A DNA stretch of 40,429 bases from Sulfurospirillum tamanense (GTDB taxonomy: Bacteria; Campylobacterota; Campylobacteria; Campylobacterales; Campylobacteraceae): assembly GCF_016937535.1 (NCBI RefSeq), contig NZ_JAFHKK010000022.1:1-40429 (forward strand), written 5' to 3'. The notes under the pieces are model-generated. The model was not told the DNA's origin. It ran no database searches and worked only from the letters and a program-made list of their open reading frames with translations. The position numbers and the translations under genes are program-made. Shown piece by piece: positions 5,486 through 23,880 of the stretch (within the stretch, counting starts at the first letter, position 1; each line of letters opens with the position of its first letter).

Positions 5486-5947
5486 TTAAGCTAGCCCAAA
5501 TTTAAGCATCACTCCAAAGAGCATACTACTGCAAAGCCCTGCAATTACACCAGCAATCACATCGTCCCCCATGACACCCAAGCCACCTTTGACGTGTTTG
5601 TCAATGCGCCCGATGACAGAGGGTTTCCAAATGTCAAAAACTCGAAACAGCACGATGCTAAATACCCACTGGGCTAAGGTTCCTGAGCTAATGCTTAGCG
5701 CTATCCACACGCCAACAACTTCATCAATAACAATGGATTTATCGTCATGCGGCCCACCTGCTGCTTCGTAAGCATCGATTTGTTTGATGCCAATGATAGC
5801 CAAAAGCAAAGCACCTAAAAATAGCGTTTCAAGGCTGAGGTATTGGACGATGGGCACAGCAACAGCCGCGCCCGCCAAGGTGCCAACTGTGCCAGGGGCT
5901 TTAGGAAAGCGCCCCGAGTAGAAAAATGTTAAAAAAAGCTCACGCAT
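5486..5947 (-). CDS. pgpA: Phosphatidylglycerophosphatase A
   Basis: A 153-residue inner-membrane protein that removes the phosphate from phosphatidylglycerophosphate to make phosphatidylglycerol. The family signature is complete: FPKAPGTVGTLAGA at the N-terminus, the DDKSIVIDEVVGVW metal/catalytic stretch in the middle, and GVMGDDVIAG near the C-terminus, with hydrophobic segments between them. Last gene of the leftward ispDF / orphan regulator / sat-like / pgpA operon, 8 bases after the sat-like stop. The same order occurs in Campylobacter jejuni (Cj1607-Cj1610). Confidence 0.93.
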   Translation of the reverse strand: MRELFLTFFYSGRFPKAPGTVGTLAGAAVAVPIVQYLSLETLFLGALLLAIIGIKQIDAYEAAGGPHDDKSIVIDEVVGVWIALSISSGTLAQWVFSIVLFRVFDIWKPSVIGRIDKHVKGGLGVMGDDVIAGVIAGLCSSMLFGVMLKFGLA

Positions 5948-5955
5948 AACAGTCC

Positions 5956-7149
5956 TTAAACAAGTGAAGTGGTTTGGTAAAGTTTCATCAGTTCTAAGTA
6001 GAAGTCTTTTTCATCGTGGCTTTCCAATAGCCCGGCGTTAGGGAAAATGTCGTCGTAAATGCGCTGAATATTTTCAAAACGGTTAGGAAAAAGCTCACTA
6101 AGCAAGATAGCAGAGATGTCTTTACGCATGAGTACCGCAGGGGGTAAAATCCCCGCAGTAAGGAGGGCTTTAAGGGATTCGGAGTGGTATTTGATGTGGT
6201 GGTGTTGGCCGTGTGGGCAGGTTTTGGTGCTCACGAGTGTCTTGCAGATGTTGCAGTAGACAAATTCTGAGAGAATCACCACTTCAAGGGGCAAGTCTTT
6301 TTTGTAGCGGTCCAAACTAGAGTGGGGTTGGTTTTTGTCAAAATACATCCCAATTCCGCTGTGGTTTTGTCCGATGACAAGCTTGGTGCACCCAAAGTTA
6401 TACGCCGCGATACTCTCAAGTACAGGGTTGTTGTGCCCTGCAAAAATGTAGGTGTTTTCAAAGGGAACGATGAGTACACGGTTTTTAGGCAGGTAATTGT
6501 CTACAAAATACTGCAAGCTTTTCAAGCGCAGTTCAAAAGAAAAAGGGTCGATTTTGTTGGGTTTAAGAAGAAAAATGACTAATAAATCAGCCTTTTCAAG
6601 TGCCATACGCAGCAAGCGCTCGTGGGCGCGATGAAAAGGGCGCGCTGTCATCATGAGTGCAGTGATTTTTTTAGCACCCAGCTCCTCTTTGGCTTGTCTG
6701 ATGCGCTCTTTAGACTCTTTGACTTCATCAAAATCGAGGGTAAATTCCCCGCTAATGGCAAGCTTTCCCAGGCGCTTAAGAAGCACTTGTGTTTCATGGT
6801 CACTCGGGTCATAGGTGCCAAAGATGTTGGTGATGCGCTTAACTTTGTCAATTTCAAAGTAGTCTTCTACGACAACCTCACCTTTTTTTTCTCGCCCGAC
6901 AATGAGGTCTAGTATTTCGCCTGTCTTGCAACTAGTGATGACCTCTTGGTTACGCCGTCCGTTGGGTGCCATAATAAACGAAAAAGGCATAGGAGAACCC
7001 TTGTAATACCCTGTTTCGTTGGTGCTTACGGCTTCTTCTTTGTTCATAAGCTTGGTGACTTTTCCCAAAATGCCCTCTTTGGCAAGGGCGAGTGTGGCCA
7101 GTGCCTCTTTGTCGATAAACAGCTGTTTATTTTTTCTTGGCGATACCAT
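5956..7149 (-). CDS. ATP-sulfurylase-like nucleotidyltransferase (sulfate adenylyltransferase family)
   Basis: A 397-residue protein with the Sat/ATP-sulfurylase layout: a PUA-like N-terminal domain with MPFSFIMAPNGRRNQEV, then a HUP-type nucleotidyltransferase domain. The motif that reads QxRNPxHRAHE in true ATP sulfurylases is MTARPFHRAHERL here, so the HxxH is kept but the Gln and Asn are lost. VIGQNHSGIGMYFD corresponds to the second nucleotide-binding loop. A Cys/His cluster (CNICK, then CPHGQHHH) probably binds zinc. It corresponds to Cj1609 of C. jejuni. No APS kinase, APS reductase or other sulfate genes are nearby, so I would not assert that sulfate is its substrate. It overlaps the regulator gene by 23 bases. 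Confidence 0.8.
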   Translation of the reverse strand: MVSPRKNKQLFIDKEALATLALAKEGILGKVTKLMNKEEAVSTNETGYYKGSPMPFSFIMAPNGRRNQEVITSCKTGEILDLIVGREKKGEVVVEDYFEIDKVKRITNIFGTYDPSDHETQVLLKRLGKLAISGEFTLDFDEVKESKERIRQAKEELGAKKITALMMTARPFHRAHERLLRMALEKADLLVIFLLKPNKIDPFSFELRLKSLQYFVDNYLPKNRVLIVPFENTYIFAGHNNPVLESIAAYNFGCTKLVIGQNHSGIGMYFDKNQPHSSLDRYKKDLPLEVVILSEFVYCNICKTLVSTKTCPHGQHHHIKYHSESLKALLTAGILPPAVLMRKDISAILLSELFPNRFENIQRIYDDIFPNAGLLESHDEKDFYLELMKLYQTTSLV

Positions 7150-8014
7150 ACTTTTTCCTCTTTTCCCATAAGCTTTTGCGGCTAATGCCTAGTTTTTTAG
7201 AAAGTTCTGTGTCAGGAAACTTAGCCTGAAAAGTTGTTATAACATATTTAACATAATCATCGATGCACAAAATATCGCCATGGTCGAAAATCTTGAGCTC
7301 TGATTGGAGCACAATGGTCTCTGTAAGGTCTTCTTCATTGGTGTCAGTGGAGGAGAGAATGGCACGTCTGTTTTCAACGAGGTTGAAAATCTTGCTTTTT
7401 TCACTTTTTTTGATGGCTTGGAGGTTGATGAGGTAGAGTAGCTGTCCGCGTGGAGCTTTGATGATGCGCTCAATAGCACCAGGCTGAGAGAGCGAAATAA
7501 AAGCAAAAGGTTCTTTGATAGCTTTGGCAAATTCAAACACCAAGGCGTCGGCGTCTTTTTGATAATCTGTTTTAATGAGCACAGGAAAAGCGGTGCGTCG
7601 GTCAATTTTTTTGGTATGTAGATTTTCAAAAAGATGCTCTAGATAAGACTTGTACGTCGCATTTTCTTGAGTGAGCGCATCAAATTCTCTGAGGTGCTGG
7701 AGTTTGCGGATGAGCTCCTCGATCATGAAAGGCTTTTGGATGTAATCCTTTGCCCCTGCCTTAATGGGGTTGGAGACCGTGTCGTTACTGATGTAAGAAA
7801 TCATTAGGATAATGATGGAGGATTTATGCTTTTCGATAACAGGGTAAAAATTCTGCCCCGAAATGTTGGTGGAGAGGAGGATTGCGTCGTAGTGTTCGTC
7901 TCGTAGCGCCTCTTTGATGGTGGCAGCATTGTCACATGTATAGCCAAGGTCATTCAGCCGTGAGGCAATGCTTTGAGCCAGATAGATTTCATTTTCAACG
8001 ATTAAGATCTTCAT
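7127..8014 (-). CDS. HP1021/Cj1608-type atypical orphan response regulator
   Basis: A 295-residue protein starting at MKILIVENE; a longer TTG frame upstream is unlikely because this ATG overlaps the ispDF stop as ATGA. The N-terminal receiver-like domain (1-120) is degenerate. The acidic pair is EN, and the phospho-acceptor Asp of the usual LLD is Ser (AILLSTNISG), while the KPF lysine is kept. The C-terminus has a Fis-type helix-turn-helix (LSKKLGISRKSLWEKRKKYGI region). Length, position beside ispDF and the missing Asp match HP1021 of Helicobacter pylori, a phosphorylation-independent master regulator that binds oriC and responds to redox state. It probably acts as a DNA-binding regulator without a partner kinase. 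Confidence 0.88.
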   Translation of the reverse strand: MKILIVENEIYLAQSIASRLNDLGYTCDNAATIKEALRDEHYDAILLSTNISGQNFYPVIEKHKSSIIILMISYISNDTVSNPIKAGAKDYIQKPFMIEELIRKLQHLREFDALTQENATYKSYLEHLFENLHTKKIDRRTAFPVLIKTDYQKDADALVFEFAKAIKEPFAFISLSQPGAIERIIKAPRGQLLYLINLQAIKKSEKSKIFNLVENRRAILSSTDTNEEDLTETIVLQSELKIFDHGDILCIDDYVKYVITTFQAKFPDTELSKKLGISRKSLWEKRKKYGIAKKK

Positions 8015-9132
8015 GCGCGTGTCCAATCATAAAATTTTAATGTAGCGCTTGCCTGCACAGCAACCCCTTCGTTGCGCCCCACGAATCCGAGGTGTTCCGT
8101 GGTGGTAGCTTTAACATTAATTTGCGAAGGTGAAAGCCCTACTAAAGATGCAATACGTCGGCGCATTGCATCTTTGAAGGCACCAAGTTTTGGGGTTTGG
8201 GCGATGATGGTGATGTCGCAATGCACCATCTCAAAACCCACGCTTTTGACAAATTCCACCACTTTGCCCAGCAAAACACCCGAATCTGCCCCTTTGTACG
8301 CGGGGTCCGTGTCGGGAAAAAACTCCCCAATGTCCCCTGCGCACGCCGCGCCTAAAATCGCGTCTGTGAGGGCGTGTAGGGCCACGTCGCCATCAGAGTG
8401 GGCTTTGAAGCCTTGGGTTTGGGAGACTTCTACGCCCCCAAGCATCATCGGCCCAACGTCACTAAAAGCATGTACGTCAAACCCGTTGCCCGTGAACATA
8501 AAAGGGGAGGGCGCATCAAGACAAGAGAGTTTGGCCAAATCGCCTGCAAAGGTGAGCTTGTGGGCGCGCTCATCGCCCTCAACATACCACGCTGTGCCGC
8601 CATTTGCCTTAATGGCACTGCTATCGTCGGTAAAGCAAACATCTGTCTTTAGGGCATTTTTGAGGGCTTGGGTGTGGGAGAGTTGGGGGGTTTGGATAAG
8701 CCTAACTTCCTCACGATTAATGGGGTCATCTTGAAAAAAAGCGGTATCAGTCACCTTGCAAGCAGGCACAATCACATCAGCACATCCTGCACTTCCAAGC
8801 AGACGCGCGATGACTTCTTGGGGAACGCAAGCCCTTGCGATGTCGCTAACCATGACGTGAGGCGTGTTTACATGTAAAAGCGCGGCTTTGAGAGATTCTT
8901 GGCGGGTGTCGCCTCCTTCGCAAAAGGTAAAATCCCCAAAGTGGCGCATATAGGCAAGCTCTGCTTTGGGTGCAACAATGATAACCTTGGCAAAGGGATG
9001 CATTGCTACAAGGCGTTTGGTAGCCACAAGCCACAACGGGTCGCAACCGACACGTAACCACTGTTTTTTTACTGGAAGGCCAAAGCGCATAGAGCTTCCC
9101 GCTCCGAGCATTACTAACGACAAATCAGGCAC
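8011..9132 (-). CDS. ispDF: Bifunctional IspD/IspF isoprenoid enzyme
   Basis: Fusion of 4-diphosphocytidyl-2-C-methyl-D-erythritol synthase (IspD, about residues 1-210) and 2-C-methyl-D-erythritol 2,4-cyclodiphosphate synthase (IspF, about 213-373), two steps of the MEP pathway. The IspD part has the CTP loop LGAGSSMRFG..KKQW. The IspF part has the metal site GFDVHAF, the AHSDGDVALHALTDA helix and TTTEHLGFVGR. I start it at the GTG at 9132, which follows AAAAAAGGA at 6 bases and gives the expected N-terminus. The reading frame is open 29 codons further upstream, but that region holds the promoter. First gene of the leftward operon. Confidence 0.93.
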   Translation of the reverse strand: MPDLSLVMLGAGSSMRFGLPVKKQWLRVGCDPLWLVATKRLVAMHPFAKVIIVAPKAELAYMRHFGDFTFCEGGDTRQESLKAALLHVNTPHVMVSDIARACVPQEVIARLLGSAGCADVIVPACKVTDTAFFQDDPINREEVRLIQTPQLSHTQALKNALKTDVCFTDDSSAIKANGGTAWYVEGDERAHKLTFAGDLAKLSCLDAPSPFMFTGNGFDVHAFSDVGPMMLGGVEVSQTQGFKAHSDGDVALHALTDAILGAACAGDIGEFFPDTDPAYKGADSGVLLGKVVEFVKSVGFEMVHCDITIIAQTPKLGAFKDAMRRRIASLVGLSPSQINVKATTTEHLGFVGRNEGVAVQASATLKFYDWTRA

Positions 9133-9167
9133 ATTTTGTCCTTTTTTCACTGTTAGAGTGTTACGAA

Positions 9168-9173
9168 AGTATA
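9168..9173 (-). promoter_or_regulatory. -10 box of the ispDF operon
   Basis: Minus-strand TATACT preceded by TG (extended -10), 36 bases upstream of the GTG at 9132. The kinase gene ends upstream at 9200, so this is the only gap from which the ispDF operon can start separately. Confidence 0.5.
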
Positions 9174-9199
9174 CATTGTAGAAACTTGTTTTTCTCTTT

Positions 9200-10630
9200 T
9201 TAATTTTTGTTAGTGGCAAGGGGAAGTGTTACCACGACAACCAATCCGCTCGTAGCATGGTTGTGTGCTGTGATGGTTCCAGTGTGTGCAAGAATGATTT
9301 GTTTGGCAATGGACAGCCCAAGACCATAGCCTTGAACGTTGCGCGACCTTGCCTCATCGCACCGGTAAAACCTATCAAAAAGGTGTGCTATTTTATCTTC
9401 AGAAACACCAGGGCCGTTGTCACTTACAACAAGCTTAGCATGGGTTGGTGTGCGCGTGAGGCTTAGGGTGATAGTGGTGTCTTTGGGGCTGTATTTGATG
9501 GCGTTTTCGATAAGGTTAAAAAACACTTGTTGTAGCAGTAACTCGTCGCATAAAACAGGTGTATTTTCAAGGTCGTTTACATGTAAGTCAATCTGTTTTT
9601 TGGAAGCAACAGGCCACAGCTCTTCAATGCACTTTAGGACAATATCATCAGCTTGATTGCGGGTGAAGTGCTTGGCAAGGGATTTCTTCTCCATGTAGGC
9701 GAGCATTAAAAGATTTTTGACGATGGATTGAAGGGTATTGACGCCTTCAAGGGCAGAAGAGAGGGTGTTTTGATACTCTTGCGCCGTGCGGTTTTTTTTT
9801 AAAGCTATTTCTAGTTCGCCTTTTATGGATGTCAACGGGGTTTTGAGTTCATGGGAAACATCAGAAGAAAAACGTTTGATTTGACTTAGCGAATGGGTGA
9901 GCTTTAAATCCACTTCTTCGTTAAAGATTTGCAACGCTTTTACCGAACATGCGGTTATGATGATGGCACAAAATGCCCTGAAAAACTGCACAGGAAAGCC
10001 AAATGTCTCTAAAAACCACGCAGCATTGAAGGTGTTTCCAGGAAAGTAATTTGTGGGATAAACGGCAATAATGGCTATAAAAGCGTAAAAAATAAAAGCG
10101 ACCCCTGGGATTTTAAAATAGAGTTTGAGCTTTTCTGCGTAAGGGGTCTTTTTGAGGGATTCTCCGTAAAAATAAAGCCCAATGCCCAAAAAAAGAGAAC
10201 CAAAAAATCCATAGGTATAGCGCACGGCGGAAATAATCCCATCGTACGAAGGGTCGAGCATGACGAGAATGAAAAAATTAGTGATGCTGATGGGATAAAT
10301 AATGCGACTATCGTAAAGATAGAAGAGAAAATGAAGAGGGTGCTGTTTATGTTTAAAGCTTTCGCGGATGATAAAACGGGAAAATTCAAATAAAAAGAAA
10401 TAGGAAATGACAAGAAAAAAGGATTTAAAAGCGATGAGCACATCGTGCAGTTGAGGCTTGACATAACTGTAGAGAAACACCCACTCGACTAAAGCGTGGG
10501 AGATGCCAAATGCTCCCAAGAGCCAGATTTTTTTAGCAAAAAAGATTTGGCTTTGTTTGGTCTTGACAAAAAAAGCAAGAATGCCAAGCACAAAAAAAGC
10601 AAGACCGTAAATAAAGAGGATTATTTCCAT
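9200..10630 (-). CDS. Sensor histidine kinase with multi-pass membrane sensor
   Basis: A 476-residue kinase. The first 230 residues hold about six to seven hydrophobic segments with short loops, a membrane-embedded sensor rather than a large periplasmic domain. Then come the HisKA helix with DVSHELKTPLTSIKGE (phospho-acceptor His260) and an HATPase_c domain with NLIENAIKYSP (N box), DNGPGVSEDKI (G1), LFDRFYR (F box) and GYGLGLSIAKQI (G2). It follows its response regulator by 9 bases. Divergent from the haem-binding exported protein and the membrane cytochrome, which are its likely targets. A respiratory or redox signal is inferred only from those neighbours. Confidence 0.92.
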   Translation of the reverse strand: MEIILFIYGLAFFVLGILAFFVKTKQSQIFFAKKIWLLGAFGISHALVEWVFLYSYVKPQLHDVLIAFKSFFLVISYFFLFEFSRFIIRESFKHKQHPLHFLFYLYDSRIIYPISITNFFILVMLDPSYDGIISAVRYTYGFFGSLFLGIGLYFYGESLKKTPYAEKLKLYFKIPGVAFIFYAFIAIIAVYPTNYFPGNTFNAAWFLETFGFPVQFFRAFCAIIITACSVKALQIFNEEVDLKLTHSLSQIKRFSSDVSHELKTPLTSIKGELEIALKKNRTAQEYQNTLSSALEGVNTLQSIVKNLLMLAYMEKKSLAKHFTRNQADDIVLKCIEELWPVASKKQIDLHVNDLENTPVLCDELLLQQVFFNLIENAIKYSPKDTTITLSLTRTPTHAKLVVSDNGPGVSEDKIAHLFDRFYRCDEARSRNVQGYGLGLSIAKQIILAHTGTITAHNHATSGLVVVVTLPLATNKN

Positions 10631-10639
10631 GAAATGCGC

Positions 10640-11311
10640 CTAAGTATCATCGATTTTGTACCCTGAGCCTCGCACGGTTTTGATGAGTTTTTTCTCCCCC
10701 TCGGTGTCTATTTTTTGGCGCAAATGGTGAATGAAAACGTTGATGACGTTGCTAGAGGTAGATTCACTGATGCCCCAGATTTTTTCTTGCAGTTGGGTGT
10801 GGGTTAAAACACTTCCCTTGTTGAGTAGTAGTAGCATGAGCATATCAAACTCTTTGCTGGTGAGGTTAATGAGGCGATTTGAACGAGACACATGGCGTTT
10901 GGGAACTGTAATCTTTAGGGTATCTAATGTGATAGTTTCGTCAAAATGGTAAGAAGTGCGACGCAAAAGGGCGTTGAGTCTGGCAACAAGTTCTGCAAAC
11001 TCAAAGGGTTTGCACAAGTAGTCATCCGCGCCACAATTTAGTCCGTGGACTTTCTCTTCAAGGGTGTTTTTAGCTGTGAGCATGAGCACCGGTGTGGTGA
11101 TTTTTTTAGCACGTAAACGCATGCAGAGTTGGTCTCCTTGAATGCCAGGAAGCATCCAATCAACAACGAGTGCGTCGTAGGGAAATTCACTTGCTAGGTA
11201 AAATCCGCTAGAGCCATCTTGTGCCGTGTCCACCAAAAACCCTTCCTCTTCGAGGCCTTTTTTGACGAAAGAGAGGATTTTGATGTCATCTTCGATGAGT
11301 AAAAGTTTCAT
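10640..11311 (-). CDS. OmpR/PhoB-family response regulator
   Basis: A 223-residue regulator. The receiver domain has the acidic pair in LLIEDD, the phospho-acceptor Asp in VVDWMLPGIQG (about residue 52) and the conserved Lys in LCKPFEF. A winged-helix Trans_reg_C domain follows, ending in IKTVRGSGYKI. All catalytic residues are present, so this is a normal phosphorylated regulator, unlike the orphan at 7127-8014. Co-transcribed with the kinase downstream. Three TTAA boxes at 10-11 bp spacing in the divergent promoter region are plausible binding sites. Confidence 0.93.
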   Translation of the reverse strand: MKLLLIEDDIKILSFVKKGLEEEGFLVDTAQDGSSGFYLASEFPYDALVVDWMLPGIQGDQLCMRLRAKKITTPVLMLTAKNTLEEKVHGLNCGADDYLCKPFEFAELVARLNALLRRTSYHFDETITLDTLKITVPKRHVSRSNRLINLTSKEFDMLMLLLLNKGSVLTHTQLQEKIWGISESTSSNVINVFIHHLRQKIDTEGEKKLIKTVRGSGYKIDDT

Positions 11312-11346
11312 GGAAGTGATTCTACTTCAATGCCCTTATGGAAAGA

Positions 11347-11371
11347 TTAAGAAAAATTAACAAAACGTTAA
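11347..11371. promoter_or_regulatory. Phased TTAA direct repeats, possible response-regulator site
   Basis: TTAA occurs at 11347-11350, 11357-11360 and 11368-11371, one helical turn apart, in the form TTAAG-N5-TTAAC-N6-TTAAT. The run lies between the divergent regulator gene (start 11311) and the haem-protein gene (start 11428), upstream of a TACAAT -10 box. OmpR-family dimers bind such phased direct repeats. Confidence 0.5.
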
Positions 11372-11393
11372 TGCTGACGAAATATCCCTCCAT

Positions 11394-11399
11394 TACAAT
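11394..11399 (+). promoter_or_regulatory. -10 box of the haem-protein/cytochrome operon
   Basis: TACAAT lies 28 bases before the ATG at 11428, followed by an AAGGAG ribosome binding site. It lies just downstream of the TTAA repeats. No good -35 is visible, which would fit an activated promoter. Confidence 0.5.
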
Positions 11400-11427
11400 G
11401 CAGTTACATTTTACTTAAGGAGTTTTC

Positions 11428-12471
11428 ATGAAAAAGATTTCATGCGTGTTGGCAAGTGCTTTGCTTGCGGGTTCTGCGCTGTATGGGGGCACTGGGCTGA
11501 CGTTGGAGAGCGCTAAGGTGAAAGGCGTTGCTTCGCTAGACGCAGGTGACGCAGCTTGGGCAAGCGCTAAACCTATTCAGATTGTTGTAGACCAGCTTCC
11601 CTATCAGAGCGAAAAATACACAGGTATTAAAAACACCACCGTAAAGATGCAGTCCGTGTATGATAGTGAGTATGTCTACTTTAAAATCGAGTATGCTGAC
11701 CCTACAAAAAGCCTTGAGCGTTATCCTTGGGAAAAACAACCCGATGGCACATGGAAGCAACTCAAAAACCCAGACCAGTTTGGAAAAGAAAATACCTATT
11801 ATGAAGACAGAGTCGCCATGTATTGGGACATCAGCGCACGTGGGTTTGAGCGAAGAGGATGTGCTGTTGCTTGCCACATGGCAGAAAATGGCAAAATCAA
11901 CGGCGTGGATGCTGGCAAAACAGCAGGACGAAAATTTACACGCGCGGAAGGACAACTCATCGATATGTGGCATTCAAAGGGCGTGCGAACGGATTCTGTC
12001 GGGCAAGTGGATGACCAGTTTGTGAACCATGTTGCAGACCCATCTGTCAATCGAAATTGGGGAAGAAACGGTGATGAGCGAACAGGCGGAGGCTATAAGG
12101 ATAACATCAACAAAGAAAAAACTGCTCCTATGTATATTAGCTCCAAGGCACAGCCAGATTTATTTTGGATTCATGATGCAGACAAAGCTCCTTTTGTAGA
12201 CACTTTTAAAGCAGGCGACAGAATCCCTGCGATGGTCGTCAGCCCGTTTGAGGGGTCTCGTGGGGATATTAGCATCAACTCAACATGGGAAAATGGCGTT
12301 TGGACATACGTGATGAAACGCGCCCTTGTAACCAAGCATCCAAAATCCGCAGAACAAGATGTGCAGTTTAGCGACCTTGGCAAAGCCTATCCTTTTGCCG
12401 TGGCTGTGTTTGACAATTCTCAAATCAACCACGTGTACCATGAGGGCTCCATTTCTTTAACCTTTAAGTAG
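11428..12471 (+). CDS. Exported haem-binding protein, ethylbenzene-dehydrogenase-gamma-like
   Basis: A 347-residue protein with a signal peptide (1-20, ending SALYG) and the beta-rich EB_dh type haem-binding domain seen in the gamma subunit of type II DMSO-reductase-family enzymes and in stand-alone cytochromes. Recognisable stretches are VKMQSVYDSEYVYFKIEYAD, YEDRVAMYWDIS and FAVAVFDNSQINH. Residues 145-150 read CAVACH, a CX3CH motif instead of the normal CXXCH, which could bind haem c with unusual spacing or be a metal or disulfide site. No molybdoenzyme genes are adjacent, so it probably acts as a free periplasmic electron carrier or sensor with the following membrane cytochrome. Divergent from the two-component system. 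Confidence 0.75.
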   Translation: MKKISCVLASALLAGSALYGGTGLTLESAKVKGVASLDAGDAAWASAKPIQIVVDQLPYQSEKYTGIKNTTVKMQSVYDSEYVYFKIEYADPTKSLERYPWEKQPDGTWKQLKNPDQFGKENTYYEDRVAMYWDISARGFERRGCAVACHMAENGKINGVDAGKTAGRKFTRAEGQLIDMWHSKGVRTDSVGQVDDQFVNHVADPSVNRNWGRNGDERTGGGYKDNINKEKTAPMYISSKAQPDLFWIHDADKAPFVDTFKAGDRIPAMVVSPFEGSRGDISINSTWENGVWTYVMKRALVTKHPKSAEQDVQFSDLGKAYPFAVAVFDNSQINHVYHEGSISLTFK

Positions 12472-12481
12472 AGGCACAAAG

Positions 12482-12504
12482 TGCCCTTGGAAGCCCCAAG
12501 GGCA
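12482..12504 (+). terminator. Hairpin between the haem-protein and cytochrome genes
   Basis: TGCCCTTGG (12482-12490) and CCAAGGGCA (12496-12504) form a perfect 9-bp stem with a 5-nt loop. There is no T-run after it, so it is more likely an intercistronic mRNA-stabilising or attenuating hairpin than a full terminator. Confidence 0.45.
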
Positions 12505-12531
12505 TGGCAAAAAGTATAAAAAGGAAAATAT

Positions 12532-13251
12532 GTGAACATTCAACACCTTAATATTCAAGCAAAAATGGCCATCACCTTGTTTTTGGGCTTTGTGATTGTG
12601 GCAACGGTCTCTTCGGTGATTTTATTGGGACTTGCTCTCACGGGGGAAAAATCGGGCCTGAAAATCCCCACGGTGGGGCAGATTAGTAAAAAATATGGCA
12701 CTTCCATGCTAGTAGGTTCCATGCACGGAAGTATGAAAGAGTTTGTGAGCGCACTAGAAGACATTGAGGTGGTGGAGCAATGGGTGAGCGAGGGGGCAAA
12801 ACAAGAGCATCCTTTGTATAAAGACGTTGAAACCATCATCCGCTACGACTGTCGCAATTGCCACTCGCGCACTTCGACTATGACCCGCGCGATTCGTTCC
12901 ATGCCTTTTGAGACGTACGAAGACATCGTTTTGTACACAGAGGCGGGGTATTCGTGGAAGCAAATGTCTAAGCAAGCGCATATTCACATGTATGGTATCG
13001 CGTCGTTTTTGATTTTTGTGACCCTGTTGTTTGCGTATACGACGTACAAAGAGTGGGTGCGTTCGGCGTTGATTGTGTTGTCATTTTCGGCCGGATTTAT
13101 TGATATTTTCTCGTGGTGGTTCATCAAAGAAATTCCCGCACTTGCTTATGCTATTTATGGTTTTGGCAGTGTGATGGTGGGGTCGATTCTCCTTATGTCT
13201 GCGTTGATTTTGTTAGACATGTGGAAACTTCCACGACCACTTAAAGAATAG
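12532..13251 (+). CDS. Membrane-bound monohaem c-type cytochrome, four-helix
   Basis: A 239-residue protein with one N-terminal membrane helix (12-36), a periplasmic domain of about 115 residues holding a CRNCH haem c motif at 107-111, and three further helices (about 152-171, 177-196, 203-229). Several His and Met residues around the first and second helices could be axial ligands. I do not recognise a named family. The layout suggests a quinone-linked or electron-transfer membrane cytochrome working with the exported haem protein encoded upstream. It starts with GTG at 12532 after AAAAAGGAA. Confidence 0.75.
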   Translation: MNIQHLNIQAKMAITLFLGFVIVATVSSVILLGLALTGEKSGLKIPTVGQISKKYGTSMLVGSMHGSMKEFVSALEDIEVVEQWVSEGAKQEHPLYKDVETIIRYDCRNCHSRTSTMTRAIRSMPFETYEDIVLYTEAGYSWKQMSKQAHIHMYGIASFLIFVTLLFAYTTYKEWVRSALIVLSFSAGFIDIFSWWFIKEIPALAYAIYGFGSVMVGSILLMSALILLDMWKLPRPLKE

Positions 13252-13259
13252 ATTTTTTA

Positions 13260-13296
13260 ATGTTACATGTAAGGCAATAGTCCTTACATGTAACAT
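13260..13296. repeat. Inverted pair of TTACATGTAA palindromes after the cytochrome gene
   Basis: ATGTTACATGTAAGG (13260-13274) and its exact reverse complement (13282-13296) are separated by 7 bases. The 15-bp stem lies 8 bases after the stop codon and would form a strong RNA hairpin in either direction, but no T-run follows on the plus strand. It may be a terminator of last resort, an mRNA end protector, or simply a paired copy of the iterated palindrome. Confidence 0.7.
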
Positions 13297-13354
13297 CTGC
13301 AATATAAGACTAAAAAACTCCTATATCTTAAGCCTCCTTTTAACATCAAAGTGC

Positions 13355-13360
13355 TATATT
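13355..13360 (+). promoter_or_regulatory. -10 box of mrp
   Basis: TATATT lies 56 bases upstream of the TTG start of mrp, in an AT-rich gap after the inverted palindrome pair. No clear -35. Confidence 0.35.
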
Positions 13361-13416
13361 CCAAAAATCAATTACGACGCTATCTGAGAAGGTAAGCACT
13401 GTTTTAGGAGAAAGCA

Positions 13417-14535
13417 TTGACAAAAGAATTAGTTTTAGAAGCCCTTAAAGGGGTCAAATACCCAGGATTTGAAAAAGACATCGTCGCCTTTGGCTTTGTC
13501 AAAGACGTAGAAGTGAGCGGTGAAAATGTGCTACTTAATGTAGAGATTGTCTCAGCAAGCCCTGAGGTGGCCGAAGAACTTCGCGGTGCTATTACTGCCT
13601 GTTTGACCAAAGCGGGTGCGGCGCGCGTGGACGTGACCATCAAACAGCCTAAGCCCCCAGCCCAAAAAAGCAACTCCCAGTCAGGTAAAAACATCGCCCC
13701 ACACGTGAGAAACTTTGTTATGGTCAGCTCCGGCAAAGGCGGTGTGGGCAAGTCTACCACCACGGTGAACCTTGCTCTTGCTATGGCGGCCCAAGGTAAA
13801 AAGGTCGGCTTGTTGGATGCGGACATTTACGGGCCAAACATTCCTCGGATGCTTGGCGTTGTAGGCACGCATCCTGAGATTGTCGGGCAAAAAGTCAAGC
13901 CCATCCAAACCCACGGCATCGAGATGATGAGCATGGGGTCGCTCATGGAAGAGGGGCAATCGCTCATCTGGCGTGGCGCCATGGTCATGAAAGCCATCGA
14001 ACAACTCCTTGGCGACATTTTGTGGAGTGACTTGGATGTGCTCTTCATCGACATGCCTCCAGGAACGGGTGACGCGCAATTAACACTCGCGCAAAGCGTG
14101 CCTGTCACCGTGGGTGTGTGTGTCACGACGCCACAACAAGTAGCCCTTGATGACACCGTGCGAAGCCTCGACATGTTCCAAAAACTCCACATTCCTATCG
14201 CGGGGATTGTGGAAAACATGAGCGGTTTTATCTGTCCAGAAAGTGGCAAAGAGTACGACATCTTTGGCAAAGGAACTACTCAGCCTTTAGCGACAGAATT
14301 TAACACCGTCGTGCTAGCAGAAGTACCCATCGAACCCGCCGTGCGTGAAGGCGGAGACGCGGGCAAGCCTGTCACGTTCTACGCCCCAAGCTCTGAAACC
14401 GCCAAACGCTACCACGAAGCGGCGCGCAAATTGTGGGCGACTATCGAAAAAGTAAACGAAGAGGGTGGCGCTTCCAACGAAGCCATCCAACCCACCACGC
14501 CTGCTGGCGTGAGTGCGTGTTCTGCTAAACATTAG
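13417..14535 (+). CDS. mrp: Mrp/ApbC/NBP35-type iron-sulfur cluster carrier ATPase
   Basis: A 372-residue cytoplasmic P-loop protein that carries and transfers Fe-S clusters. An N-terminal FeS_assembly_P (MIP18-like) domain occupies about 1-75. The ParA-type ATPase follows, with the deviant Walker A SSGKGGVGKSTTTVNLA (about 105), the switch LLDADIYGPNIPRMLG and the Walker B VLFIDMPPGTGDAQLT. The cluster-binding CXXC is replaced: FICPESGKEYDIFG has one Cys followed by Ser. The start is TTG at 13417 after TAGGAG. It is the usual neighbour of ispDF in Campylobacter (Cj1606), here separated from it by the two-component and cytochrome genes. Confidence 0.93.
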   Translation: MTKELVLEALKGVKYPGFEKDIVAFGFVKDVEVSGENVLLNVEIVSASPEVAEELRGAITACLTKAGAARVDVTIKQPKPPAQKSNSQSGKNIAPHVRNFVMVSSGKGGVGKSTTTVNLALAMAAQGKKVGLLDADIYGPNIPRMLGVVGTHPEIVGQKVKPIQTHGIEMMSMGSLMEEGQSLIWRGAMVMKAIEQLLGDILWSDLDVLFIDMPPGTGDAQLTLAQSVPVTVGVCVTTPQQVALDDTVRSLDMFQKLHIPIAGIVENMSGFICPESGKEYDIFGKGTTQPLATEFNTVVLAEVPIEPAVREGGDAGKPVTFYAPSSETAKRYHEAARKLWATIEKVNEEGGASNEAIQPTTPAGVSACSAKH

Positions 14536-22689: not shown

Positions 22690-23880
22690 TCAAGAAGCCT
22701 TTGTGGAAGCTAGTTTGACGCAGTTTCTTCCTGCTTTTTTTGCTTGGTACAAAAGGGTGTCCGCCTTTTTGACAATAGCGGGGATGTCTTTTCCCCAAGA
22801 ATGGTCACAAGCACCGATGCTAATGGTTAGCGAAACAGTGGTGCCGGATTTGGCGGGAGATTTTTTGGGCGCGCGGTCATTACCACGAATCTGAAACCCC
22901 TGATTGGCAATAGCTTCACGCACTTCTTCCAGATAAAGCTTACACTCCTTGACTTGCTTTCCTGCAAAGACAAGAGCAAACTCCTCTCCTCCATACCGAA
23001 AAGCTTTGCCGCCCCCCTTGACCCCTTTAAGTGTCGTGGCAACCTTTCGCAATACGTCATCACCCACATCGTGTCCATAGGTGTCATTAAAATTTTTAAA
23101 ATGGTCAATGTCGGTCATAGCAATGGTAAAAGGAGGCGAAAGCCGTTCAAAATACTCTTCCATAGCCCGGCGCGAAGGAATGCCTGTGAGAGTGTCAATA
23201 AAAGCCATGCGGTACGCATCATTGCTGAGTGCTACCAAAAAAATAAGGCTCGCTCCACCCAAATACAGCGCAGGAAGCGACGAGGCACCAAGGGCGGGAA
23301 GCCCACCCACCACCAAGGCCCACGCAAGGGATTTTTCAGCTTGTTTGGATTCGAGCAAGCCATACAGTAGTAAAAAAACAACCCCAACCCCATAAAGCAC
23401 CAAAGCAATCTGTGACAAAGGCTCAAAGGGTAAGGGGGTCTTGAAAATGGGTGTAGCAATGGTGATACCAAGGGTGTTGCTACGTGCTAGAAAGTATCCA
23501 ACAAGGCATAAGGCTAAAGTGACGCCATAGCGCGGGAGGGAAGGTTTGCCAAAGACACCCTTTTCGCTCATGAGCCCAAGAAGCAAAAACGCCACAGGCA
23601 ATAAAAGAAAAAAAGTTTGAATGGCTGCTTCTTTGGTAAGCCCCAAGGGTTCATAGAACAAGATTGCCCCTTGTCCACAAAACAGCAAAAACGACAAAAG
23701 CATAGGTTTTGCCCGTCCAAAGTGAAGGCTAAAAAAGAGGCTAAGTAGAGGCAATAGCATGGCCAGTACACTAAGTTGCCCCTCTAAAAGTCCATCAAAC
23801 CAAAGAAAAAAAGGCTGGCCAAAAAAGAGCAAGAGGCATAATGAGAGTGCAAAAAGTGGCAAGGTCAACAAGGAAGGCAT
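22690..23880 (-). CDS. Membrane diguanylate cyclase (GGDEF)
   Basis: A 396-residue protein. About seven to eight hydrophobic segments (1-220) form a membrane sensor. The GGDEF domain follows (about 230-390), with DALTGIPSRRAMEE-like entry (DTLTGIPSRRAME), DIDHFKNFNDTYGHDVGDDVL and the active-site loop FRYGGEEFALV. All residues for making cyclic di-GMP from GTP are present. The inhibitory RxxD site normally five residues ahead of the loop is absent, so product inhibition there is unlikely. Monocistronic; the ligand sensed by the membrane part is unknown. Confidence 0.92.
   Translation of the reverse strand: MPSLLTLPLFALSLCLLLFFGQPFFLWFDGLLEGQLSVLAMLLPLLSLFFSLHFGRAKPMLLSFLLFCGQGAILFYEPLGLTKEAAIQTFFLLLPVAFLLLGLMSEKGVFGKPSLPRYGVTLALCLVGYFLARSNTLGITIATPIFKTPLPFEPLSQIALVLYGVGVVFLLLYGLLESKQAEKSLAWALVVGGLPALGASSLPALYLGGASLIFLVALSNDAYRMAFIDTLTGIPSRRAMEEYFERLSPPFTIAMTDIDHFKNFNDTYGHDVGDDVLRKVATTLKGVKGGGKAFRYGGEEFALVFAGKQVKECKLYLEEVREAIANQGFQIRGNDRAPKKSPAKSGTTVSLTISIGACDHSWGKDIPAIVKKADTLLYQAKKAGRNCVKLASTKAS

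Follow-up and report, generated by a model that had tools for sequence, protein, structure and literature searches.

EbdC, which is the gamma subunit of ethylbenzene dehydrogenase, and NxrC, from the Kuenenia nitrite oxidoreductase, are described as soluble single-haem electron carriers (PMC8840923, PMC8387239). In the Sulfolobales, the CbsAB proteins of the cbsAB/soxNL cluster are described as a cytochrome-c1-like carrier together with an uncharacterised hydrophobic protein, with no molybdoenzyme (PMC5461723). PceS/PceP of Sulfurospirillum is reported to consist of a kinase with a seven-transmembrane domain and an OmpR-family regulator, and the PceP sites are given as CTATA repeats separated by 6-nt gaps (an 11-bp period), mostly overlapping the -35 element (PMC7755780). 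ImcH and some CymA homologues contain CX3CH, which is presented as a putative haem motif of atypical form (PMC6295460). Here we analyse a 40,429-nucleotide stretch of the Sulfurospirillum tamanense genome (contig NZ_JAFHKK010000022.1, hereafter the window), in which a two-component kinase/regulator pair is divergently transcribed from genes for an exported-looking haem protein of the EB_dh fold and a small cytochrome c with four transmembrane helices (4-TM). Judged from sequence comparison, it is rather probable that these genes make up a single electron-transfer cassette, inducible and portable, under its own two-component switch.

A kinase/regulator pair divergent from an exported haem protein and a four-helix cytochrome c had been named in the original prediction, made from the DNA alone, and the genes and their coordinates proved correct. 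The principal features are as follows.

9200..10630, minus strand: sensor histidine kinase, 476 residues, HisKA and HATPase_c (Pfam)
10640..11311, minus strand: OmpR/PhoB-type response regulator, 223 residues, Response_reg and Trans_reg_C
11346..11372, plus strand: putative operator of three TTAA half-sites (TTAA at 11347, 11357 and 11368)
11394..11399, plus strand: -10-like hexamer TACAAT, 21 nt past the operator
11428..12471, plus strand: EB_dh-fold haem protein, 347 residues, signal-peptide-like start, PF09459
11860..11877, plus strand: CX3CH codons of the EB_dh protein, C145-A-V-A-C149-H150
12532..13251, plus strand: 4-TM monohaem cytochrome c, 239 residues, GTG start
12850..12864, plus strand: CXXCH haem c codons of the 4-TM protein, C107-R-N-C110-H111

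Linkage of the four genes and a putative operator

The kinase/regulator pair diverges from the EB_dh and 4-TM genes at every one of the 16 examined loci in which these two genes are present (the window, L033, L034-L042, L081-L083, L052 and L053). This count includes L081, where both the kinase and the regulator have broken reading frames. From a comparison of the flanking open reading frames by eye, the 16 loci represent about eight chromosomal sites, and the neighbourhood comparison that the original prediction called for thus shows that the arrangement is not a local oddity. By Pfam, a HisKA/HATPase kinase adjoins a receiver/winged-helix regulator, the composition of an OmpR/PhoB-type two-component system. 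Gene linkage, the EB_dh fold, the conserved motifs, the operator footprint and the co-occurrence of operator and cassette were all computed directly.

Genome searches drew on Campylobacterota only. Relatives of the EB_dh protein at E < 1e-100 were found in 10 of 397 sampled genomes of the phylum, that of the window included, and relatives of the 4-TM protein in the same 10 and in G414. The nine other carriers all belong to the Sulfurospirillum family (f20), and the sister genome G001 carries EB_dh and 4-TM relatives at 94-95% identity. Two metagenome-assembled genomes, from an uncultured member of the Campylobacteraceae (L052) and a Halarcobacter (L053), also carry the pair, in a neighbourhood common to both. 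Among 44 f20 genomes there were 13 EB_dh matches, 12 of them in the cassette and one (G429) in a molybdoenzyme operon; the EB_dh match of G306 reached only 6e-4 and lies in a molybdoenzyme-type operon. Patchy presence in 12 of the 44 genomes marks the cassette as an accessory trait. An all-species contig scan with two strict peptide patterns returned 10 loci, and the G414 homologue was among those it missed. Among the literature matches listed, no title or abstract opening concerned the cassette or the operator, but supplementary proteome tables of Sulfurospirillum, which were outside reach, may hold data; PMC9084895, in which the motif was looked for, showed nothing.

Phased TTAA boxes had been predicted in the shared promoter, and they are found at exactly 11347-11371 in the gap between the regulator and EB_dh genes, as a triple direct repeat with spacings of 10 and 11 bp and the only such triple in the window. 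Chance produced a mean of 0.01 triples in the window (100 shuffles) and 2 in 20000 shuffles of the 116-bp gap. A triple with the same spacing is present in 10 of the first 11 promoters compared and in five further EB_dh promoters. A search of the 44 f20 genomes that allowed at most one mismatch gave 12 matches, one per genome, covering all 12 cassette genomes and each with 0 mismatches, and gave none in the 32 f20 genomes without the cassette; the reversed pattern matched once in the same 44 genomes. Eleven of the 12 matches are EB_dh promoters, and the twelfth, in G220, precedes an octahaem/NrfD operon. The operator is also found at 0 mismatches in L052 and L053.

Downstream of the operator, a hexamer NA[TC]ANT, sought 14-29 nt past it, begins at a distance of 21 nt in each of the 17 promoters compared (16 EB_dh and one octahaem), and the same columns are conserved in nine representative promoters. 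An assumed 17-nt spacer from this -10 would put the -35 over the end of the third half-site. Regulators of the OmpR family that activate in the class II manner usually bind at such a position. The position of the operator and its direct-repeat footprint fit putative tandem-repeat binding by an OmpR-type regulator near the -35, as far as sequence can indicate. The phased TTAA triple is very probably a real operator, and regulation of the cassette by its own switch is strongly supported by comparison. The notion of a self-regulated electron-transfer module, raised when the DNA was first read, is likewise well supported by the linkage at about eight sites and the one co-occurring operator. A single conserved operator per genome provides a testable regulatory handle on an uncharacterised electron-carrier family of the Campylobacterota.

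The two haem proteins

The EB_dh protein matches Pfam PF09459 at E 1.4e-40, and its signal-peptide-like start, recognised by eye and with no predictor, suggests that it is exported. An AlphaFold2 model (predicted local distance difference test, pLDDT, 75.5; predicted template modelling score 0.79) gave VIA Z scores of 18.8 to EbdC (2ivf_C) and 18.0 to NxrC (7b04_C), with the next rows at 12.7, and Foldseek and VIA both group it with NxrC and EbdC and then with CBM9. The fold is that of the gamma subunit of type II dimethyl sulfoxide (DMSO) reductases. A canonical CXXCH was looked for in the protein and is absent; in its place C145, C149 and H150 form a CX3CH that is invariant in 11 of 11 rows of alignment A2 and 11 of 11 of A5. 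Three EB_dh proteins of molybdoenzyme operons and a Bradyrhizobium protein are without CX3CH, and the aligned segment in the three is IGMG, so the Gly-Met-Gly segment of gamma subunits is replaced by CX3CH in the cassette proteins. We infer that the methionine of IGMG is the haem ligand in gamma subunits; the haem of EbDH is described as Lys/Met-ligated (PMC8840923).

Because the fold is that of EbdC and NxrC, the EB_dh protein could be an ordinary haem b gamma subunit whose molybdoenzyme, of the type II DMSO-reductase family, is encoded elsewhere, with the 4-TM protein as its membrane link, and relatives do possess molybdoenzyme operons with gamma-like EB_dh genes (L080, L084 and L085). However, genes for alpha or beta molybdoenzyme subunits were recognised neither by Pfam among the ten neighbours in the window nor by eye beside the other cassettes examined, no whole-genome search for a type II alpha subunit having been made. 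Only one EB_dh match each is found in the window genome, its sister and the 12 f20 cassette genomes. The protein scores 23.2 bits against the gamma-subunit model TIGR03477, below the cut-off of 169.85, and has exchanged Gly-Met-Gly for CX3CH. We regard a conventional gamma subunit as very unlikely.

The model of the 4-TM protein has helices at 8-37, 142-167, 174-197 and 203-230, and its CXXCH is invariant in 12 of 12 rows, as is proper to a c-type cytochrome. Also invariant are H150 and H152 in TM2 and D191, W195 and W196 in TM3, which in the likely topology would lie at the periplasmic ends of the helices. The protein has no significant match in Pfam or NCBIfam, with weak hits to Haem_bd in 9 of 12 members and to CBB3 in 7 of 12 (E up to 0.1), and Foldseek found no PDB match at E <= 0.001 for a model in which only the transmembrane helices are confident. 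The description "novel-looking four-helix cytochrome c" given to it at the outset therefore holds, with four helices, one CXXCH, and novelty in the sense of these missing matches.

Haem motifs and fold point to electron transfer as the role of the cassette. The kinase would detect a signal in or near the inner membrane through its multi-TM domain and, as its family suggests, phosphorylate the OmpR-type regulator, which from the footprint would bind the triple TTAA direct repeat. With the third half-site abutting or overlapping the -35, the fixed spacing to the -10 suggests that the EB_dh-4TM operon would be activated in class II geometry. The 4-TM cytochrome, whose periplasmic domain would bear a single haem c and whose conserved His, Asp and Trp residues lie at the ends of TM2 and TM3, may exchange electrons with the quinone pool or its partner. 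The EB_dh protein would be the periplasmic half, a gamma-fold haem carrier without a molybdoenzyme that probably holds its haem via CX3CH and may move electrons to or from a substrate or carrier. If the two form a complex, they would connect quinone and periplasm without the help of a molybdenum enzyme.

Two further features were also observed. The L080, L084 and L085 loci are type II DMSO-reductase-like operons of Campylobacterota whose EB_dh protein has a C-terminal region matching cytochrome c (Pfam on L080 only); a rhodanese-like gene, identified by eye, precedes each operon, and an Mrp-like ATPase is encoded further upstream. In the cassette of the window, the gap between the EB_dh and 4-TM genes contains the following element.

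12474..12508, plus strand: hairpin in the EB_dh/4-TM intergenic gap

Its folding energy is -18.5 kcal/mol (z -2.6), and a hairpin in the same gap of the sister genome is stronger (-23.8, z -5.5), its stem differing in part. Other cassettes have a gap of 0-27 nt, except L042 with 157 nt, and an Rfam scan of 8500-14000 gave no match. The hairpin may determine the ratio in which the two proteins are made.

The switch and its chromosomal settings

The N-terminal multi-TM sensor domain of the kinase (about residues 1-245, ahead of the H-box SHELKTP at residue 259) is membrane-embedded by hydropathy, and in none of 10 members does it correspond to a Pfam family. One copy is present in five of the six genomes checked and two in G220. 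Distant relatives (E 8e-17 to 8e-32, 25-29%) occur in 7 of 397 genomes within other, larger proteins; six of eight such whole proteins best match the window protein at 22690-23880, which resembles a GGDEF protein, and several are probably diguanylate-cyclase-like. No neighbourhood in common with the cassette was seen for them.

In G220 (L079, G220:C17, 2519-9487) a second regulator/kinase pair, with 60% (regulator) and 43% (kinase) identity to that of the window, diverges from an octahaem/NrfD operon with the same operator in the gap. Besides a cytochrome c, a ferredoxin and an NrfD protein, the operon encodes a tetrahaem-type protein and an octahaem-type cytochrome, the haem motifs having been counted by eye. 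G220 also holds an EB_dh/4TM cassette elsewhere. In G436 what appears by eye to be the same site, with phospholipase-, RNA-binding- and permease-type neighbours (Pfam on the G220 phospholipase only), is occupied by EB_dh-4TM. Relatives of the octahaem operon at 55-56% (G256, G367 and G221; L152-L154) lack both the sensor pair and, at up to 4 mismatches, the operator in the 14-16 kb fetched. Since the G220 operator stands before an unrelated operon beside a second sensor pair, the switch appears to be portable; most simply, the sensor pair moves together with its operator, and the two can come to stand in front of different electron-transfer operons. One regulator pair and operator type would then front two unrelated electron-transfer operons, seemingly at the same chromosomal site.

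This second use also bears on the idea that both haem proteins serve the kinase as accessory sensors, of redox state or of a ligand, so that the cassette would be a signalling device and not a respiratory branch. Strict linkage to the kinase speaks for it, a membrane-embedded sensor without a Pfam domain makes a periplasmic input protein plausible, and the CBM9/DOMON-like fold suits ligand binding. Yet the second sensor pair of G220 adjoins the octahaem/NrfD operon instead, though G220 has the EB_dh/4TM genes elsewhere, and the operator lies upstream of the haem genes, as it would for a target operon. We consider a signalling device unlikely.

A different explanation would have the cassette serve the metabolism of sulfur oxyanions such as sulfite, with a sulfur compound as both signal and substrate. 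A TauE/SafE-type gene, of the sulfite exporter family, lies 23-27 nt past the 4-TM gene in L034, L037, L039, L040 and L041, that is, in five of the seven genomes at the common Sulfurospirillum site (called by Pfam on the L034 copy and by eye on the others), which is a weak hint. The same site is within about 5 kb of a gene for a sulfite reductase-TusA fusion (Pfam on L034), and in L053 a TauE gene lies about 2.2 kb from the kinase gene. In the other loci, however, that of the window among them, no TauE gene comes directly after the 4-TM gene; TauE is a broad family, and the neighbours at other sites are unrelated. A sulfur role seems to us quite improbable.

Several observations count against an electron-transfer cassette under its own switch, the reading that we prefer. 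The EB_dh promoter of G220 itself (L042) has no middle half-site and 3 mismatches, and the third half-site is TTCA before the second operon of G220 (L079) and in L081. The operator pattern was built from the first 11 promoters and loosened by one base after the promoter of that second operon had been seen. In the window genome a search with up to 3 mismatches found only the seed itself, and the reversed control also gave 1 match. Many of the promoters compared are close relatives, so the 17 of 17 are not 17 independent events. A promoter scanner found no standard sigma-70 match in the EB_dh promoter under its rule, a result that is consistent with activator dependence and does not prove it. 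The CX3CH departs from the canonical haem motif, so that attachment of haem to it is putative, and the periplasmic domain of the 4-TM model has pLDDT < 50. Finally, the 4-TM homologue of G414 (31%) immediately precedes a NiFe hydrogenase operon, with no EB_dh gene in the stretch fetched, an association that fits a general role as membrane electron partner. A broader proposal joins two parts: a portable sensor-operator unit that fronts different respiratory modules (EB_dh/4TM and octahaem/NrfD) on one signal, and, as the form most often met with, a new two-protein respiratory complex in which a gamma fold freed of its molybdoenzyme, with covalent haem via CX3CH, docks on a new 4-TM haem c anchor reactive with quinol. 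We consider both parts together less likely than not.

Two further neighbourhoods may be recorded. The lone 4-TM homologue of G414 (L043, 8708-14856) is also beside a second, shorter NiFe-hydrogenase-like large subunit, and several Sulfurospirillum loci have a gene for a C_GCAxxG_C_C redox protein immediately next to that of the kinase (Pfam on L034 only). In the window the cassette is flanked by the following genes.

8011-9219, minus strand: bifunctional IspDF gene (NF006899, above cut-off)
13417-14535, plus strand: Mrp/ApbC-type gene (ApbC model NF008669, 315 against 348 bits, just under cut-off)

The cassette had been predicted to split the mrp-ispDF neighbourhood of Campylobacter. It does lie between ispDF and mrp, but thiC is found between these genes in G021 and G003 (Pfam ThiC), and in G005 a thiC-like gene, recognised by eye, is beside ispDF with mrp outside the 13 kb fetched. 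The cassette therefore takes the position of thiC and does not divide an adjacent pair, nor is it peculiar to this site. The upstream order, of homologues of 5486-5947 (presumably pgpA), 5956-7149 (an ATP-sulfurylase-type protein by Pfam), 7127-8026 and ispDF, is kept in three of three genomes of the same family inspected. The gene at 7127-8026, between ispDF and the ATP-sulfurylase-type gene, encodes a receiver-domain protein with a weak Fis-type helix-turn-helix and is itself kept in all three.

Origin from a mobile element was considered and rejected: the EB_dh protein has a single plasmid match at 26% and no phage match, and the 4-TM protein has no plasmid match. The plasmid match, from Bradyrhizobium and named "ethylbenzene dehydrogenase-related protein", lacks CX3CH and, judged by eye, has a membrane extension at its N-terminus. 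The GC content of the cassette, overall and at third codon positions, is within the range of the other genes of the window, the kinase being slightly richer in AT (GC 0.413 against about 0.46), and thus bears no clear foreign signature. In the EB_dh tree (13 rows, midpoint-drawn) the window copy groups with those of G370 and G220 (100/100); in the 4-TM tree (13 rows, midpoint-drawn) it stands apart, and the kinase and regulator trees do not resolve its placement. The gene trees thus point to no one donor or direction, and do not decide for or against a transfer into the genus of the window.

Comparison with known systems

The switch resembles PceS/PceP, as described, in its membrane kinase, its OmpR-family regulator and its repeats of about 11-bp period near the -35. 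It differs in that PceS is described with an added periplasmic domain and PceSP as governing a multi-operon organohalide regulon, and the PceSP operator is given as CTATW-N17-CTATW, against the TTAA triple of the cassette, no search with the CTATW motif having been made. A search with the cassette sensor domain in G257, G270 and G370 matched only the cassette kinase, PceS not being compared directly.

CbsAB resembles the cassette in pairing a haem carrier with a hydrophobic protein rather than with a molybdoenzyme. CbsAB is part of a bc1-like complex that also contains cytochrome b and a Rieske protein, whereas genes for neither were found by Pfam among the window neighbours or by eye beside the other cassettes. 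PF09459 gives a hit in the control genome of Sulfolobus acidocaldarius, presumably CbsA. The ImcH and CymA homologues have CX3CH in common with the cassette EB_dh protein, but they are described as multihaem inner-membrane cytochromes and are not of the EB_dh fold.

The closest structural counterparts are EbdC and NxrC, whose fold is like that of the cassette EB_dh protein over most of its length. The cassette protein has 347 residues with its signal peptide, against 214 in the EbdC chain. It is set apart from both by the absence of a nearby molybdoenzyme (none seen), by CX3CH in the place of Gly-Met-Gly and by its 4-TM cytochrome partner. If our interpretation is true, it would exemplify a fold of haem b carriers to which an attachment motif of the c type has been added.

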